From NCBI GenBank assembly GCA_947463325.1, contig CANHQT010000002.1, positions 1-64,000 on the forward strand: DNA of 64,000 nucleotides, written 5' to 3'. Below the pieces are notes generated by a model that did not search any database, was not told where the DNA came from, and was given only the letters and a program-made list of their open reading frames with translations. The stretch's first letter is position 1. Each line of letters opens with the position of its first letter. The translations under genes and the position numbers were made by a program. Origin of the DNA: Sphingomonadaceae bacterium. GTDB lineage: Bacteria > Pseudomonadota > Alphaproteobacteria > Sphingomonadales > Sphingomonadaceae. Of this stretch, positions 14,731 to 22,634 are shown one piece after another.

Positions 14731-14997
14731 ATGACCAAGACCACGAAGCCCGCGGCCAAAACGGCCGACAAACCCGCTGCAATCGACGCTCCGGTTGTGC
14801 CCGCGCGCACGACCAAGACCGACCAGCTCCTGGCGCTGCTGCGCAAGCCCGAGGGCGCGAGCGTCGAGGAGATGAGCGAGGCGCTGGGTTGGCTTTCGCA
14901 TACCACGAGGGCGGCGCTCACCGGCCTCAGGAAGAAGGGCCATGCGATTACACGCGACAAGGTGGGGAGCGTCACTGTCTACCGGATCGCGGCATGA
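14731..14997 (+). CDS. DUF3489-like small protein (HTH-like)
   Basis: TKTDQLLALLRKPEGASVEEMSEALGWLSHTTRAALTGLRKKGHAITRDK; next to DUF2924 and recombinase genes. Confidence 0.8.
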   Translation: MTKTTKPAAKTADKPAAIDAPVVPARTTKTDQLLALLRKPEGASVEEMSEALGWLSHTTRAALTGLRKKGHAITRDKVGSVTVYRIAA

Positions 14998-15416
14998 TGA
15001 TCGAGAATGAGGTGGCGGCGATTGCTCGGCTTTCGGGGCCGGCGATCATCGCGGCATGGGAGCAGGCGCACGGCGCGCCTGCTCCCAACGTGCCCCCGAG
15101 CATGCTTGCCCGAGCCCTGACATGGCAGATGCAGGCCCGCGCGCATGGCGGCCTCGAGAAACGGGTGGAGCGGCACCTCGACCGGCTGGTTCAGGCGAGC
15201 GAGGAGGCATTGCGCAATCCCCAGCCGGTGCCCGATGCACCGGCGGCAGGGACCCGCTTCCTGCGCGAGTGGGGCGGCAGGGTCCATCACGTCGAGCTGC
15301 TCCCTAACGGGCGCTATGCCTATGCGGCGCGCGAATGGCGCTCGCTCAGCGTCATCGCCAAGCACATCACGGGCGCGCACTGGTCGGGACCGCGTTTCTT
15401 CGGGGTCGCGACATGA
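14994..15416 (+). CDS. DUF2924-like protein
   Basis: Start at MMIENEVAAIARL; GTRFLREWGGRVHHVELLPNGRYAYAAREWRSLSVIAKHITGAHWSGPRFFG; overlaps the neighbouring stop and start codons. Confidence 0.82.
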   Translation: MMIENEVAAIARLSGPAIIAAWEQAHGAPAPNVPPSMLARALTWQMQARAHGGLEKRVERHLDRLVQASEEALRNPQPVPDAPAAGTRFLREWGGRVHHVELLPNGRYAYAAREWRSLSVIAKHITGAHWSGPRFFGVAT

Positions 15417-17083
15417 GCGTGCAGCGGCGCTGTGCCATCTACACACGCAAGTCCACCGAGGAGGGCCTCGACATGGCCTTCAACAGCCTTGATGCCCAGC
15501 GCGAGGCGTGCGAGGCCTATATCCGTAGCCAGCGCTCGGAAGGCTGGCTCCTGCTGCCGGCCTCCTATGATGATGGAGGTTTCTCGGGCGGCAGCATGGA
15601 GCGGCCATCGCTCAAGCGCCTGCTGGCTGACGTCGAGGCCGGCAAGGTTGACGTGATCGTCGTCTACAAGGTCGACAGGCTGACGCGCAGCCTCCCGGAC
15701 TTCGCCCGCATCGTGGACATACTCGACAAGGCGGGCGCCTCGTTCGTGAGCGTCACGCAGGCCTTCAACACCACCACCAGCATGGGGCGGCTGACGCTCA
15801 ATGTGCTGCTCAGCTTCGCGCAGTTCGAGCGCGAGGTGATCGCCGAGCGCGTCCGCGACAAGATAGCCCAGTCCAAGGCGCGAGGCATGTGGATGGGAGG
15901 GCCGGTGCCATTGGGCTACGAGGTAAAGGACAGGAAGCTCGTGCCCTTGGCAGGCGAGGCCGAGACGGTGCGGCGCATCTTCAGCCTCTATCTCGAGCTT
16001 CCTTCCGTGCGTGCGCTCAAGGAGCGGCTCGACGCCGAGGGCATCGTCACCAAGGTCCAGAAGTGCAAGGACGGCACCACCGGTGGTGCACTGTTCGGGA
16101 GAGGAGGGCTCTACCATCTCCTCTCCAATCCGGTGGTCATCGGCAAGGTCAGGCACAAGGGCAAGCTCTACGAGGGTGAGCATGAGCCGATCATCGATCC
16201 GTCCTTGTGGGATGCCGTGCAGCAGCGCCTCGCCGCGAACGGCGTGGAGCGCCGGACGCGCTCCGGAGAGCAGCCTGCACTGCTGACCAGCATGCTGCGT
16301 GACCATGTCGGAAGGCCGATGTCACCGACGCACAGCTGCAAGGGCACGCGGCGGTACGCCTACTATGCCTCGTCGACCGCGAGGGAGGTGAGCGATGGCG
16401 TGGCGCAGGCCGACAGCGTGCCGGCAGTGCGTGTGGCGAGGGCAGCAGCCGACGATGCTGTTGCCCATGCGCTGAAGGATTTGTTTGCGCGCGATGCCGT
16501 GCTGGCGCTCCTCGAACCCCTGCGCCTCGACCTCGCCCAGATCGAACGTGCGCTTGCCATGGCCGACGAGCTGTCCCTCCATGCCGGAACCCGTGCAGGC
16601 ATGCCGCTGCGGGACCTCCTCCGGAAGCTCGACTTTGCGATGGCGGTGGGTCCTGACCGCGTGACGGCGACGATCGACCGGCAGCGGTTGCTCGGCCTGT
16701 TGCTTGGGCGTTCTGCTGACGAGAAGAGCGAGTCGGAACCCGTGGCTATCTCTGTACCCCTCGAACTCAAGCGCAAGGGCAGGGCGACACGGTTGGTGCT
16801 TGCAGCTCATGCGAAGCCGTCAGCCAAGCCCGACCCGCGGCTCGTCCGGCTGCTGGTGAATGCCGAGCGCGAGCGGCGGGCGATGTTTGCCCAAGGGGCA
16901 GAACGACCATCCGCGCACCAGGTAAGGCTGGCGAGGCTTGCCTTTCTTGCGCCCGACATCACCGCGGCCATTCTCGAGGGACGACAGCCGGGGCACCTTA
17001 CTAGCCGCGCGCTGCTGAAGATGCCGGATTTGCCGATGGACTGGCTTGAGCAGGGTAGGGTGCTCGGGATGCGGACGACCTAG
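15413..17083 (+). CDS. serine site-specific recombinase (large)
   Basis: CAIYTRKSTEEGLDMAFNSLDAQREACEAYI, VYKVDRLTRSLPDFARIVDIL, FAQFEREVIAERVRDKIA, plus Recombinase domain. Confidence 0.93.
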   Translation: MSVQRRCAIYTRKSTEEGLDMAFNSLDAQREACEAYIRSQRSEGWLLLPASYDDGGFSGGSMERPSLKRLLADVEAGKVDVIVVYKVDRLTRSLPDFARIVDILDKAGASFVSVTQAFNTTTSMGRLTLNVLLSFAQFEREVIAERVRDKIAQSKARGMWMGGPVPLGYEVKDRKLVPLAGEAETVRRIFSLYLELPSVRALKERLDAEGIVTKVQKCKDGTTGGALFGRGGLYHLLSNPVVIGKVRHKGKLYEGEHEPIIDPSLWDAVQQRLAANGVERRTRSGEQPALLTSMLRDHVGRPMSPTHSCKGTRRYAYYASSTAREVSDGVAQADSVPAVRVARAAADDAVAHALKDLFARDAVLALLEPLRLDLAQIERALAMADELSLHAGTRAGMPLRDLLRKLDFAMAVGPDRVTATIDRQRLLGLLLGRSADEKSESEPVAISVPLELKRKGRATRLVLAAHAKPSAKPDPRLVRLLVNAERERRAMFAQGAERPSAHQVRLARLAFLAPDITAAILEGRQPGHLTSRALLKMPDLPMDWLEQGRVLGMRTT

Positions 17084-17717: not shown

Positions 17718-17794
17718 TGGCGCACCCAAGAGGATTCGAACCTCTGGCCTTTGCCTTCGGAGGGCAACGCTCTATCCAGCTGAGCTATGGGTGC
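17718..17794 (-). tRNA. tRNA-Arg(CCG), intact copy with encoded CCA
   Basis: Folded by eye: GCACCCA TA GCTC AGCTGGATA GAGC G TTGCC CTCCGAA GGCAA AGGCC AGAGG TTCGAAT CCTCT TGGGTGC G CCA (77 nt). Confidence 0.95.
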
Positions 17795-17905
17795 TTGGGC
17801 GTTTCAGCCTGCGGGTGGAGCCTCTAGCAGTTGATGGGTTGAGCGCAAAGCCTATATGCGCGCACCGGCGCGGTCACCGCGTTTGATGGGAAGGGCAATC
17901 GATGG
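17726..17905. repeat. left copy of 180-bp imperfect direct repeat (tRNA-Arg plus 5' flank of the amidase gene)
   Basis: Aligned to 21565-21744 with 6 mismatches and no gaps. Confidence 0.93.
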
Positions 17906-18140
17906 ACAGCCCTGGAATAAGAAAATTGTTATAACTGGCATGGCTAGCACCAAAAATTTTATCGTTCGCGTTTAAATCTTTCTAAAAAAGTATATCGCTT
18001 CAACCACCGTATACGACAGTATATCCAACAGAACTTTCAAAATGATAACAAAATTGTTTAACATTTAAAAAGATTATACTTTCCTTAAATAACCCTATCA
18101 ATAAATATTGATTATTTATCGATAAATAGAAGTAATTTAT

Positions 18141-18692
18141 TCACTTCAAAACCATAAATCGCCCTATCTCAATTTCATCGTCTAAACAAGAAGCGACTTC
18201 ATCTTTCAACTCTAAAAATGCCTGCGATGGCTTTATGAAATTCCTCTTAAAATATCCTTCCTCAAGTTTCCTAGTGACGAAATGGCACTCCGCCGAAAAT
18301 GCATTCTTATCAATCTTTAAAGCGAAGCTCAAATGTTTTACTGCTAAATCGATATCAGATATCTTTGCTTTCTTAATGATATCCTTACTCAATAGCGCGA
18401 CAGCTTGCAGAAAATGAAGCTCTGCATCAGTTGGGTAACTTGACAGGCCTCTAGAAAGAATATTTAGGGCAGCATCAGTCAATTCATCATCTAGATACAA
18501 TATCACTAGGGCCGATATTGATCTAGCATCATCGATAAACTTCTCGGCATTTGCCTTTATAGTTAGCCTCTCACTGAGCGATAAGGCAGACACATCGGTA
18601 CGCAAGTTGAGCTGCGTTACACCTCCGCAATATTCACACTTTTGAATGCGTCCTGTGTGTTGCAGTTGTGCTCCGCAGCTCAAACAGTGCAT
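18141..18692 (-). CDS. zinc-ribbon protein with helical/TPR-like C-terminal region
   Basis: MHCLSCGAQLQHTGRIQKCEYCGG (CxxC-N12-CxxC) followed by helical repeats; last gene of a four-gene operon. Confidence 0.75.
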   Translation of the reverse strand: MHCLSCGAQLQHTGRIQKCEYCGGVTQLNLRTDVSALSLSERLTIKANAEKFIDDARSISALVILYLDDELTDAALNILSRGLSSYPTDAELHFLQAVALLSKDIIKKAKISDIDLAVKHLSFALKIDKNAFSAECHFVTRKLEEGYFKRNFIKPSQAFLELKDEVASCLDDEIEIGRFMVLK

Positions 18693-18695
18693 GGC

Positions 18696-19409
18696 TTAGG
18701 ATGCCCGAAGAGCCGACTTCTTCTCGCGAAGAATCGTGCGTACGCCATTGGCTATCTCTACGGCCCGATCAGCATCAAACGCTTCGCCGCCTTCGCCGTC
18801 TCCTCCGGTCAAAGGGTATGAATGTGTTTTGCCGCCGACAACGACCTCCAGCGTGTCAGTTCGCTCATCAAAGTCAATTGATGAAACGTCCTGCCAGAAA
18901 AATTCAGACGTCCGATCTCGACTGTCCCAGAGATTCTCGAGACAGATCGTTTCATCAAACGTCATCAATTGGTCCCTACCATATATCATCCACACAATTC
19001 TCTGGTGATTGCGATAGGTAACGGACTCTCCGTGCTTTCCTTCCACTGGCAAGGTTACTTCCCCATACTCTCTATCTGGAGCGATATATTCCGGATAGGC
19101 GAAGAAGTATTGAGCATCGCGTATAGCCTCCTCCTTTTCGAAGTTGAGCTTTTGATAAGCGATGGTTTCCCGACTCAATGCAACACGATGCCATTCAGCA
19201 TCGATTTTCTCTGGATCAGGTCGTCCAGTCAGATAATTGTACATCAGAACAGCCAATAGAATACCCGCTATCACTGCAGCTATTGTAAAACTGGCAATGT
19301 ACCAAGTCGCAGCTCCCACAGCGGCAATCCCATACAGGAATGGCTGTAACTCTCCCTCTTTTGGGAAGAACTTTCGTATCTCTTGTTCTGTTAGAATTCG
19401 TTCAGACAT
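18696..19409 (-). CDS. uncharacterised membrane protein, two N-terminal TM segments plus soluble C-terminal domain
   Basis: PFLYGIAAVGAATWYIASFTIAAVIAGILLAVLMYNYL; 3-bp gap to the next gene. Confidence 0.75.
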   Translation of the reverse strand: MSERILTEQEIRKFFPKEGELQPFLYGIAAVGAATWYIASFTIAAVIAGILLAVLMYNYLTGRPDPEKIDAEWHRVALSRETIAYQKLNFEKEEAIRDAQYFFAYPEYIAPDREYGEVTLPVEGKHGESVTYRNHQRIVWMIYGRDQLMTFDETICLENLWDSRDRTSEFFWQDVSSIDFDERTDTLEVVVGGKTHSYPLTGGDGEGGEAFDADRAVEIANGVRTILREKKSALRAS

Positions 19410-19435
19410 ATTTCCCTCCTTATGAACTTTGGCAG

Positions 19436-20104
19436 CTAATGCGAAACATTCAAATTTTTCAATTTGATAATAGCCATCTGTGCCATGGTGTCTTTTAGAA
19501 GCATTGCAAACTCGTCTTGATTGGCATCCGGAGTGCTTTCTATTAACCTTGTGACGGCTTGCACGAGGCCGGTGTTAGATTCTGGGGCCGCCAGGTTCGG
19601 CAGAAATTGGAGCTCGTCACCCAGCCTGTGAAGGTCCGATTGCCTAGCGGGATCGCGACACAGCGCTGCCGCTTCCAACACCCGATTCCGCAGGTTCAGA
19701 TGAAAGAGGGTTCCCTGAAGGGTTGAGACATTCTGATCAATAACTCTATCAAAGATATGTTGGAAATTGATGTATAGTAGCACCGTGCCTAACGATATTA
19801 CAGATATAAATAGCGATAAACTTTGCCATTGAAAAAATAACGCTATCACTAAGTTTGTAGTTGATAAAATAACGAGGAAAACTGCAAAAGATCCAGCTGT
19901 CCCAAGTCGCGCGAGGGTCGATTGTTGAGTTGAATTGTCACCAAATGATATTGGTATATTGATCAGAAAAGACATAGCGAATGCGAATTGAAGAATTGAG
20001 ATTGATTTTGAAATATTGTTAAAGGTATCTTTGTCGTAAGCGTAGAACGCTACTACAACGGTAGCTATGGTTATAACATTGGAAATATGAAATCGAAATT
20101 TCAT
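19436..20104 (-). CDS. uncharacterised multi-pass membrane protein
   Basis: Several hydrophobic segments (VITIATVVVAFYAY, LQFAFAMSFLINIPISF, AVFLVILSTTNLVIALFF, LFISVISLGTVLLYI) plus soluble tail. Confidence 0.75.
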   Translation of the reverse strand: MKFRFHISNVITIATVVVAFYAYDKDTFNNISKSISILQFAFAMSFLINIPISFGDNSTQQSTLARLGTAGSFAVFLVILSTTNLVIALFFQWQSLSLFISVISLGTVLLYINFQHIFDRVIDQNVSTLQGTLFHLNLRNRVLEAAALCRDPARQSDLHRLGDELQFLPNLAAPESNTGLVQAVTRLIESTPDANQDEFAMLLKDTMAQMAIIKLKNLNVSH

Positions 20105-20105
20105 A

Positions 20106-21128
20106 TCATATGCCTTTCAAGAGCTTGGATTTTACTTCGGCATATTCTTCGTCAGTTATTGCTCCCGCATCCAAAAGATTCTTCCATTCCTTTAGCGTGT
20201 CGATCGGGTTGGTCGACTCGTGGATTGCGCCTTTAGTGTTAAGGGTTGGCTGCCCAGCCTGATGGTTTAGATCTGACATTGCCCCTCCCAGAGGGCCAGC
20301 TATGGCGCCGGCAATATTGGCGCCCAGGCCGATCCCCATAATGGCTCCTTGGCCACCTTCATTGCTTGCTGCGGCCTTCAAGACATCGAAGGTTCTGTCT
20401 TGTTGATAGGTGAATTCGAGCACGCCGAGTTCGGCTCTTTTTGCGAGTGCGTTTTTGAGGGTGATGACGCTCGGGTCATCAACAGGAACATTGATTGACT
20501 GAACGTTGAACTGCGTAATCTTTATCCCACACTCTTCAGAATGGGCGGAGAACTGTTCTTCAATAGCCCTTGAGATCAATACAAGATATTGTGAAATATC
20601 GAGAATGGAAGTTTTTAGAGATATAAGATGTTCGGCGATGATGCTTTTTGCAATTGTAATAAGGGAGCCGTTTAAATATCGAGCAATGTCATCGACCTCA
20701 AAAGAGGTCGAGGTTCCAACAAGTTTTTGTAGGAATTTTTTGCCATCGGAGATTTTTACGCCGTACTGACCGAATGACCTTACTGGCACGATGATCCCGT
20801 ATTTTGGATCTTCGATCTGAATTGGGTCTGGTGTCCCCCACTTCACATCTAGGTTGGCGGTAAGGTTCACAAACCAAACTTCAGCCGAGAACGGGGTTTT
20901 GCCTCCAAAAGGAAGCCCAATAAGGGTTCGGATCAGCGGGATATTTTCGGTTGATAAGGTGTGCCGGCCTGCGAGAAATGGCCCATCGTAGATGCCTTCT
21001 CTAACTAGAAAAGCTTGTTGCGTTTCATTAACGAGGAGTTGTGTCCATGTGGAAAGCTCTTCAGACGGAAACTTCCATACTAGCTGATCTGGGGATGCAT
21101 CCCACTTAACCCGATCAATGATCGCCAC
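20106..21128 (-). CDS. SPFH-domain (YdjI/virion-core-like) protein with C-terminal SHOCT-like motif
   Basis: LVNETQQAFLVREGIYDGPFLAGRHTLSTENIPLIRTLIGLPFGGKTPFSAEVWFVN...VKWGTPDPIQIEDPKYG; C-term LKEWKNLLDAGAITDEEYAEVKSKLLKGI; GTG start. Confidence 0.85.
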   Translation of the reverse strand: MAIIDRVKWDASPDQLVWKFPSEELSTWTQLLVNETQQAFLVREGIYDGPFLAGRHTLSTENIPLIRTLIGLPFGGKTPFSAEVWFVNLTANLDVKWGTPDPIQIEDPKYGIIVPVRSFGQYGVKISDGKKFLQKLVGTSTSFEVDDIARYLNGSLITIAKSIIAEHLISLKTSILDISQYLVLISRAIEEQFSAHSEECGIKITQFNVQSINVPVDDPSVITLKNALAKRAELGVLEFTYQQDRTFDVLKAAASNEGGQGAIMGIGLGANIAGAIAGPLGGAMSDLNHQAGQPTLNTKGAIHESTNPIDTLKEWKNLLDAGAITDEEYAEVKSKLLKGI

Positions 21129-21564
21129 GTCCCCCCCCCTTCCAAAATCAACTTCTCGGGTCGTCGTACTTGCATATCAAAATGGAATTTCTGCTCATGA
21201 GAGGATGCCCTCGCGAGCCGCGCATCGCGACTTCTACATGCGCTGGGAGCGAGCCATGCGCTCGTTTTGGTGTGTCAGCTTTGCGGGCGGCTGGATTGGC
21301 CTCATTCTGTGTTCCGCTTAATTCGCGAACGGCTTGATAAGCTGCATGTTTGCAGCTGACGGCCCAACCGCCTCCCTGACCCTGACTTGATGGCCGTACC
21401 TCGGCACACGCACCCTCCGAGTTTTTTCTAACTATATCAACAATATGTGGCCGAGCTGAGTTTTTTGTCAACGATTTGTGAATGGTTCGAGTCGGTCAAT
21501 TTTGTCCATTTTGGGCAATGGTGGTCAGATAAGCACCCGATTTTGAATGGGAAAATGAAGGATT

Positions 21565-21744
21565 CCAAGAGGATTCGAACCTCTGGCCTTTGCCTTCGGA
21601 GGGCAACGCTCTATCCAGTTGAGCTATGGGTGCTTGGGCGTTTCAGCCAGCGGGTGGAGCCTCCAGCAGTTGATGGGCTGAGCGCAAAGCCTATATGCGC
21701 GCACCGGCGCGGTCACCGCGCTTGATGGGAAGGACAATCGATGG
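21565..21744. repeat. right copy of the 180-bp direct repeat; contains a tRNA-Arg copy with a broken 3' acceptor strand
   Basis: tRNA body 21565-21633 matches, but the acceptor 3' strand reads TGGAATCC instead of TGGGTGCG. Confidence 0.92.
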
Positions 21745-22634
21745 CCCGCACTGTGACCGTTGCCGCATTGCAGCTCGCGCTCGGCGGCAGTGAGGAGGCG
21801 AATATCGCTGCCGTATCGCGCCTGGTGCGTGAGGCTGCTGGGCGGGGCGCCACCGTCATCCTGCCGCCCGAGCTGTTCGAAGGGCCCTATTTCTGCAAGG
21901 TCGAGGAGGAGGGCGAGTTCGCCCGGGCCCGGCCGATGGAGGCACACCCCAGCGTCGTCGCCATGCGCGCGCTCGCGGTTGAACTCGGCGTCACCATCCC
22001 GACCAGCTTCTTCGAACGCGAAGGGCCGCACCATTATAACACCCTCGCCATGATCGGGCCGGATGGCGCCATCGCCGGCCGCTATCGCAAGAGCCACATT
22101 CCCGACGGGCCGGGTTATGAGGAAAAATATTATTTCCGCCCCGGCAACACCGGGTTCAAGGTGTGGCCCGTTTCCTCCGCGGCAGCACGCGAGGAAACCG
22201 GGGAAGGCTCCAGTACATCCTGCACCGTAGGTGTGGGGATTTGCTGGGACCAATGGTATCCGGAAGCCGCGCGGGTGATGGCGCTGGATGGCGCTGAAAT
22301 CCTGTTCTACCCCACCGCCATCGGCAGTGAACCGCACGATCCCGGCCTCGACACCCGCCGCCTGTGGCGCCGCGCGATGATCGGCCATGCGGTCAGCAAT
22401 GTGATGCCTGTGGTCGCCGCCAACCGCATCGGTACAGAGGATGGCCAGCGCTTTTACGGCACCAGCTTCATCTGCGATGAATGGGGCGATGTGCTCGCCG
22501 AACTGGGGGATGATGAGGAAGGCGTGATCACCGCCACGCTCGATCTTGACCGCGCGGCCAAGAACCGCGCCGGCATGGGCTTCTTCCGCGATCGCCGGCC
22601 AGAGCTTTACGGCCGGATATCCGAGGACCGCTAA
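21741..22634 (+). CDS. aguB: N-carbamoylputrescine amidase
   Basis: Nitrilase family: ILPPELFEGPYFCK, YRKSHIPDGPGYEEKYYF, VGICWDQWYPEAAR. Confidence 0.9.
   Translation: MARTVTVAALQLALGGSEEANIAAVSRLVREAAGRGATVILPPELFEGPYFCKVEEEGEFARARPMEAHPSVVAMRALAVELGVTIPTSFFEREGPHHYNTLAMIGPDGAIAGRYRKSHIPDGPGYEEKYYFRPGNTGFKVWPVSSAAAREETGEGSSTSCTVGVGICWDQWYPEAARVMALDGAEILFYPTAIGSEPHDPGLDTRRLWRRAMIGHAVSNVMPVVAANRIGTEDGQRFYGTSFICDEWGDVLAELGDDEEGVITATLDLDRAAKNRAGMGFFRDRRPELYGRISEDR

Follow-up and report, generated by a model that had tools for sequence, protein, structure and literature searches.

The 64,000-nucleotide stretch of DNA analysed here (the window) contains, at a tRNA gene, an inserted island of 3.6 kb. 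The content of the island is four intact open reading frames, all on the minus strand and separated by gaps of 1, 26 and 3 bp. This compact co-directional arrangement had been read from the letters by the first-pass annotation and agrees with the ORF coordinates. Genes 1 to 4 encode P0001 to P0004, respectively. The features of the region are:

17718..17794, minus strand: complete tRNA-Arg(CCG), identified by ARAGORN
17726..17914: left boundary repeat, 189 bp, identified by repeat search; covers almost the whole of the complete tRNA
17915..21564: body of the AT-rich island, 44.7% GC, without an integrase
18141..18692, minus strand: gene 4, 183 aa; N-terminal zinc ribbon and TPR-like helices, soluble
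18696..19409, minus strand: gene 3, 237 aa; two TM helices and a predicted PH-like domain
19436..20104, minus strand: gene 2, 222 aa; 4TM protein, putative anchor holding the SPFH protein at the membrane
20106..21128, minus strand: gene 1, 340 aa, GTG start; SPFH/Band_7_1 protein with a C-terminal SHOCT domain
21442..21471, minus strand: possible operon promoter TTGACA-18-CATATT (10/12), about 310 bp upstream of gene 1
21565..21753: right boundary repeat, 189 bp; lacks the 3' acceptor end of the tRNA and continues into a native amidase gene

Promoter-like sites of the TTGACA-18-CATATT type are not more numerous than expected by chance. The ribosome-binding region of gene 1 includes a run of nine G residues (window 21129-21143, minus strand GGAAGGGGGGGGGACGTG), and variation in the length of this run could change gene 1 translation.

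The GC content of the island body (0.447) is well below that of the rest of the window (0.637). A repeat search of the window showed that the two 189-bp direct repeats are 95% identical and that tRNA-Arg(CCG) lies inside both. The proposal of a tRNA-bounded AT-rich island is therefore borne out, with more exact boundaries than had been claimed. In another genome of the same genus (G204), an intact tRNA-Arg immediately adjoins the same genes (amidase, nth and dapB). Recombination between the two repeats of the window would recreate this gene order exactly, indicating that G204 represents the empty site. The repeat covers the 5' part of the tRNA together with some 110 bp of upstream sequence, in contrast to the usual att core, which is the 3'-end, and no integrase is present within the island body (17915..21564). 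The island is best explained as a horizontally acquired, non-autonomous element at a tRNA site, and may have arrived as DNA of a near relative, through an insertion of the homologous or Campbell type. A cluster composed of DUF3489, DUF2924 and large serine recombinase genes (14731-17083) lies to the left of the tRNA, outside both repeats; a literature search for this cluster returned incidental mentions only. No link was found between the repeats and the recombinase (15335-17083) that would identify it as the integrase of the island. Several genomes of the genus carry partial copies of tRNA-Arg(CCG) 150-300 bp from the complete one, which suggests that this tRNA is a frequent insertion site.

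P0001 had been described as an SPFH protein with a SHOCT-like tail and both domains score above their Pfam cut-offs: Band_7_1 (PF13421; E 1.3e-42, 146.2 bits for a cut-off of 24) and the C-terminal SHOCT (PF09851; E 4e-7, 30.0 bits for a cut-off of 27). PF13421 is the domain with which SHOCT is most often partnered (PMC3581485). No TM segment is predicted in P0001 (hydropathy judged by eye). Its relatives in Betaproteobacteria and Campylobacterota share 50-62% identity over the full length. The SPFH fragment was scanned against 85,462 species genomes and the best 80 loci were taken, with identities over the query fragment of up to 78%; counts based on these loci are lower bounds. The C-termini of the SPFH proteins are variable. 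At least two CxxC motifs (zinc ribbons) occur in 59 of 78, and SHOCT-type tails are found in the betaproteobacterial group, the window and locus L069 (several judged by eye). A search for solved structures with P0001 or with the A3 SPFH profile found none. Scans of viral contigs with A1, A4 and A8 found no relatives, and the scan with A5 retrieved two distant SPFH loci only.

Above cut-off, genes 2 and 3 have no match in Pfam, NCBIfam, PHROG or PADLOC. Counting Pfam, NCBIfam and PADLOC, three of the four proteins are without a family at that level. The AlphaFold2 model of P0002 (pLDDT 92.8) predicts four TM helices and a cytosolic helical bundle, into which the last TM helix extends as a long helix (residues 94-148). 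A fold search of this model against the PDB gave no match at E<=0.001. Members of the P0002 family are present in 66 of the best 80 SPFH loci, usually directly downstream of the SPFH gene. An HMM of this 4TM family, built from 51 of these loci and without P0002, recovers P0002 with an i-E of 5e-15 at Z=1. A P0002 match on a Proteus record was discarded as a chance hit, antisense to prophage tail genes.

The model of P0003 (pLDDT 72) predicts a two-helix membrane hairpin, nine strands forming a cytosolic beta-rich domain, and a C-terminal helix (213-236). Its best PDB fold is the PH domain of Sec3 (prob 0.97, E 0.027, TM 0.31), and the PH-superfold entries Sec3, Rtt106 and ASAP1 are among its best matches. 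PH-like folds are defined by a seven-strand barrel that a C-terminal helix caps; the model shows nine strands and then the helix. Since the matches have E values of 0.027 or worse and TM scores of about 0.3, the assignment as PH-like is a suggestion of low confidence. The family HMM detects P0003 at E 3e-6 in a set of 3697 ORFs; a separate search with 500 shuffles gave 0.62 at best. Two features recur in the family, an LREKK at the C-terminus and the motif E-[YF]-F-[YW]-x-D. A single genome among 301 of the order has P0003, leaving aside two short spurious pieces: the weak matches in G297 and G055 are short pieces of unrelated ORFs. A survey of Bacteroidota with the P0003 profile gave a single genome of 299, which was already known. 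Where the family occurs, it is present once per genome and adjoins the SPFH gene (5/5 outside genomes tested that carry it). A profile search for the P0003 domain as a fusion within the large betaproteobacterial zinc-ribbon proteins found none.

P0004 is the zinc-ribbon protein of the initial description: it carries the motif CxxC-x12-CxxC followed by a TPR-like region. Its profile matches, to TPR and zinc-ribbon models, are sub-threshold only. Like P0003, it is rare, being found in 1 of 399 genomes of the phylum, one weak match apart.

Homologues of both P0003 and P0004 are present in six other loci (L004, L069, L110, L120, L132 and L137), where those of P0004 adjoin the SPFH gene. L132 carries them with an SPFH gene but without the 4TM gene. 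All four families are therefore found together in six genomes, namely the window and L120, L110, L137, L069 and L004; this count takes in a short 2TM form of the P0003 family in L137 (i-E 2.7e-11). Spacing in the six complete loci is mostly within 1-45 bp and gene order varies. The five outside genomes belong to Bacteroidota, Verrucomicrobiota and Bacillota, which with the window makes four or more phyla. This recurrence as a syntenic unit makes the association more than a chance observation. The tRNA-island setting was established for the window. The SPFH tail in the outside loci often consists of zinc ribbons or another short domain. In three of the seven loci a divergent, TM-extended YidD is encoded inside the module (L069 2594-3091, L132 7581-8030, L004 4489-4914), and it is a second copy in both genomes tested (L069 and L132). 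The L004 record (NZ_OY725907.1) is called a Bacteroides finegoldii plasmid; it includes the core genes obgE, adk, hpt and dinB and may be a piece of chromosome instead.

A second group of loci in Betaproteobacteria and Campylobacterota (L059-L068 and L072) resembles the window in its first two genes, an orthologous SPFH gene (often with SHOCT) and a 4TM partner in the same order. They differ by their third gene, which encodes a large YdjG-like zinc-ribbon/TM/(TPR) protein where the window has P0003 and P0004. A tree of 37 SPFH domains puts P0001 within a mainly pseudomonadotal clade (support 99/99), beside Mesosutterella (97/87), and far from the YdjI-like rows (separation 100/100). These rows are plasmid proteins so named for their YdjG-like partner; B. 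subtilis YdjI itself is outside the tree. The SPFH protein of L069 groups with Betaproteobacteria, yet its contig is labelled Bacillota, suggesting possible mis-binning or transfer. On this tree, the carriers of the P0003-P0004 pair require at least three changes on well-supported branches; one gain followed by losses would also fit the distribution.

A known system with a comparable composition is the pspA-ydjGHI operon of B. subtilis, to which the locus had been likened. There, soluble YdjI is recruited to the membrane through YdjG and YdjH, interacts with PspA and works with it under envelope stress (PMC8581546). YdjH is a TPM-domain protein, while YdjG consists of two zinc ribbons, an NTF2-like domain and a TM segment (PMC11237479). 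As in that operon, the window combines a soluble Band_7/SPFH protein, membrane proteins and a zinc-ribbon protein. However, the operon and its island are without pspA, and neither P0002 nor P0003 matches the TPM domain at E<=1. Unlike YdjG, P0004 has one ribbon and TPR-like helices, with no TM segment and no NTF2-like domain; only the ribbon aligns with YdjG-like proteins, together with a weak TPR match where those have TPRs. The window SPFH protein has a SHOCT rather than a zinc-finger tail and belongs to a clade different from that of the YdjI-like plasmid proteins used, and the 2TM/PH-like protein is additional. The absence of PspA, TPM and the YdjG architecture places the module outside the pspA-ydjGHI system. 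The two may nevertheless share a principle, in which a membrane partner holds an SPFH scaffold that is itself soluble. As the tests made gave no homology of the partners to YdjG or YdjH, this functional analogy derives from the SPFH protein. The lack of PspA, which was part of the original comparison, holds for the operon and not for the genome, where PspA is encoded on another contig. Flotillin-NfeD operons also pair an SPFH protein with a membrane partner, but the window SPFH protein is without a membrane anchor of its own and genes 2-4 have no NfeD match at E<=1. No homology to a characterised module of known function was found. The four-gene set is a genuine variant of SPFH-scaffold modules, conserved and mobile, and apparently undescribed. 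Its distinction from pspA-ydjGHI, already suspected from the sequence, is supported by synteny and by the three proteins without a family.

What the module might do can be considered in this light. We favor a mobile SPFH scaffold module with exchangeable adaptor cassettes, which would maintain membrane integrity or look after membrane proteins and would not require PspA to be encoded in the operon; to this reading we give about an even chance of being correct. The four proteins would assemble beneath the inner membrane, the soluble SPFH-SHOCT protein oligomerising into a ring or cage. The 4TM protein would anchor it to the membrane and present its cytosolic helical domain. The 2TM/PH-like and zinc-ribbon/TPR proteins would act as sensors or adaptors, recruiting lipids or proteins to the scaffold as its clients, and the output would be a membrane, or membrane proteins, kept in order under envelope stress. 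The linkage of a TM-less SPFH protein to one 4TM family in most of the best 80 loci argues for an anchored scaffold, as does the anchoring of YdjI by operon-encoded membrane proteins in B. subtilis (PMC8581546). The alternation of SHOCT and zinc ribbons is as expected for a scaffold with exchangeable docking tails. The close spacing of all four families in six genomes and the single P0003-family copy beside SPFH also speak for this reading, and the YidD genes in three of the seven loci, though not in the window, hint at membrane-protein insertion or quality control. The rarity of the four-gene form (1/301 genomes of the order) and its mobility would be unusual for housekeeping membrane upkeep.

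The TM-extended YidD inside some modules points to membrane-protein insertion or quality control. The module could thus be a platform working with YidD/YidC or with a protease, as HflK/C does with FtsH. The presence of a TPR/zinc-ribbon adaptor is in keeping with such a role and membrane proteases are known to associate with SPFH scaffolds (PMC13086221). However, YidD is absent from the window module, L110, L120 and L137, and the operon encodes neither protease nor insertase, so that we consider this version rather unlikely. A ydjGHI-like unit using the chromosomal PspA is highly improbable: the PspA gene on the other contig makes help in trans possible and YdjI does interact with PspA in B. 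subtilis (PMC8581546), but the operon includes no TPM protein, YdjG architecture or PspA, and P0001 is well separated from the YdjI-like proteins in the tree.

The context had also been taken as typical of defence. In an anti-phage or membrane-surveillance system, the 4TM and PH-like proteins would sense membrane changes caused by phage, and assembly of the SPFH protein would trigger membrane disruption or arrest. The patchy, mobile distribution and the tRNA-site island are compatible with this, as are two related loci. In Sulfurospirillum diekertiae (L065 2-4557), HerA and a type I restriction enzyme are encoded directly upstream of an SPFH-4TM-zinc-ribbon operon. On a Vibrio coralliilyticus plasmid (L007 1916-2677, minus strand), a gene encoding a protein distantly similar to P0003 overlaps that of a TIR-domain protein and is divergent from an adjacent SPFH and zinc-ribbon pair. 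Against it, none of the four proteins matches a PADLOC 2.0 family at E<=1, and no effector domain (nuclease, NADase, pore-former or other) was recognised. The expected enrichment in defence islands gave no signal: at a threshold of 1e-10, at most 8 of 72 neighbouring genes (24 loci) match PADLOC, and among the 44 ordinary window genes that served as control at most 4 do so, a small sample. Sulfurospirillum is the one related locus within an evident defence island, and the literature searched linked no such unit to defence. The claim of a typical defence context is thus not supported, and defence is possible but unlikely, and not the leading reading. A more elaborate form appears distinctly improbable. 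It would be a mobile membrane-surveillance immunity in which a 4TM-anchored SPFH cage with interchangeable zinc-ribbon/TPR and PH-like cassettes senses membrane damage by phage or toxins without PspA and contains the damage or kills the cell.

SPFH proteins are universal, but only a minority of those in bacteria have a known function. The module described here joins a single SPFH lineage to a 4TM partner of its own, the putative anchor, and to adaptors that can be swapped. The SPFH-4TM core is constant, and around it the adaptor genes have been exchanged or else lost repeatedly. The module also defines protein families for which there is no Pfam model. Being compact, mobile, cross-phylum and clonable, it offers a test system for how SPFH proteins are recruited to membranes and for their role there.
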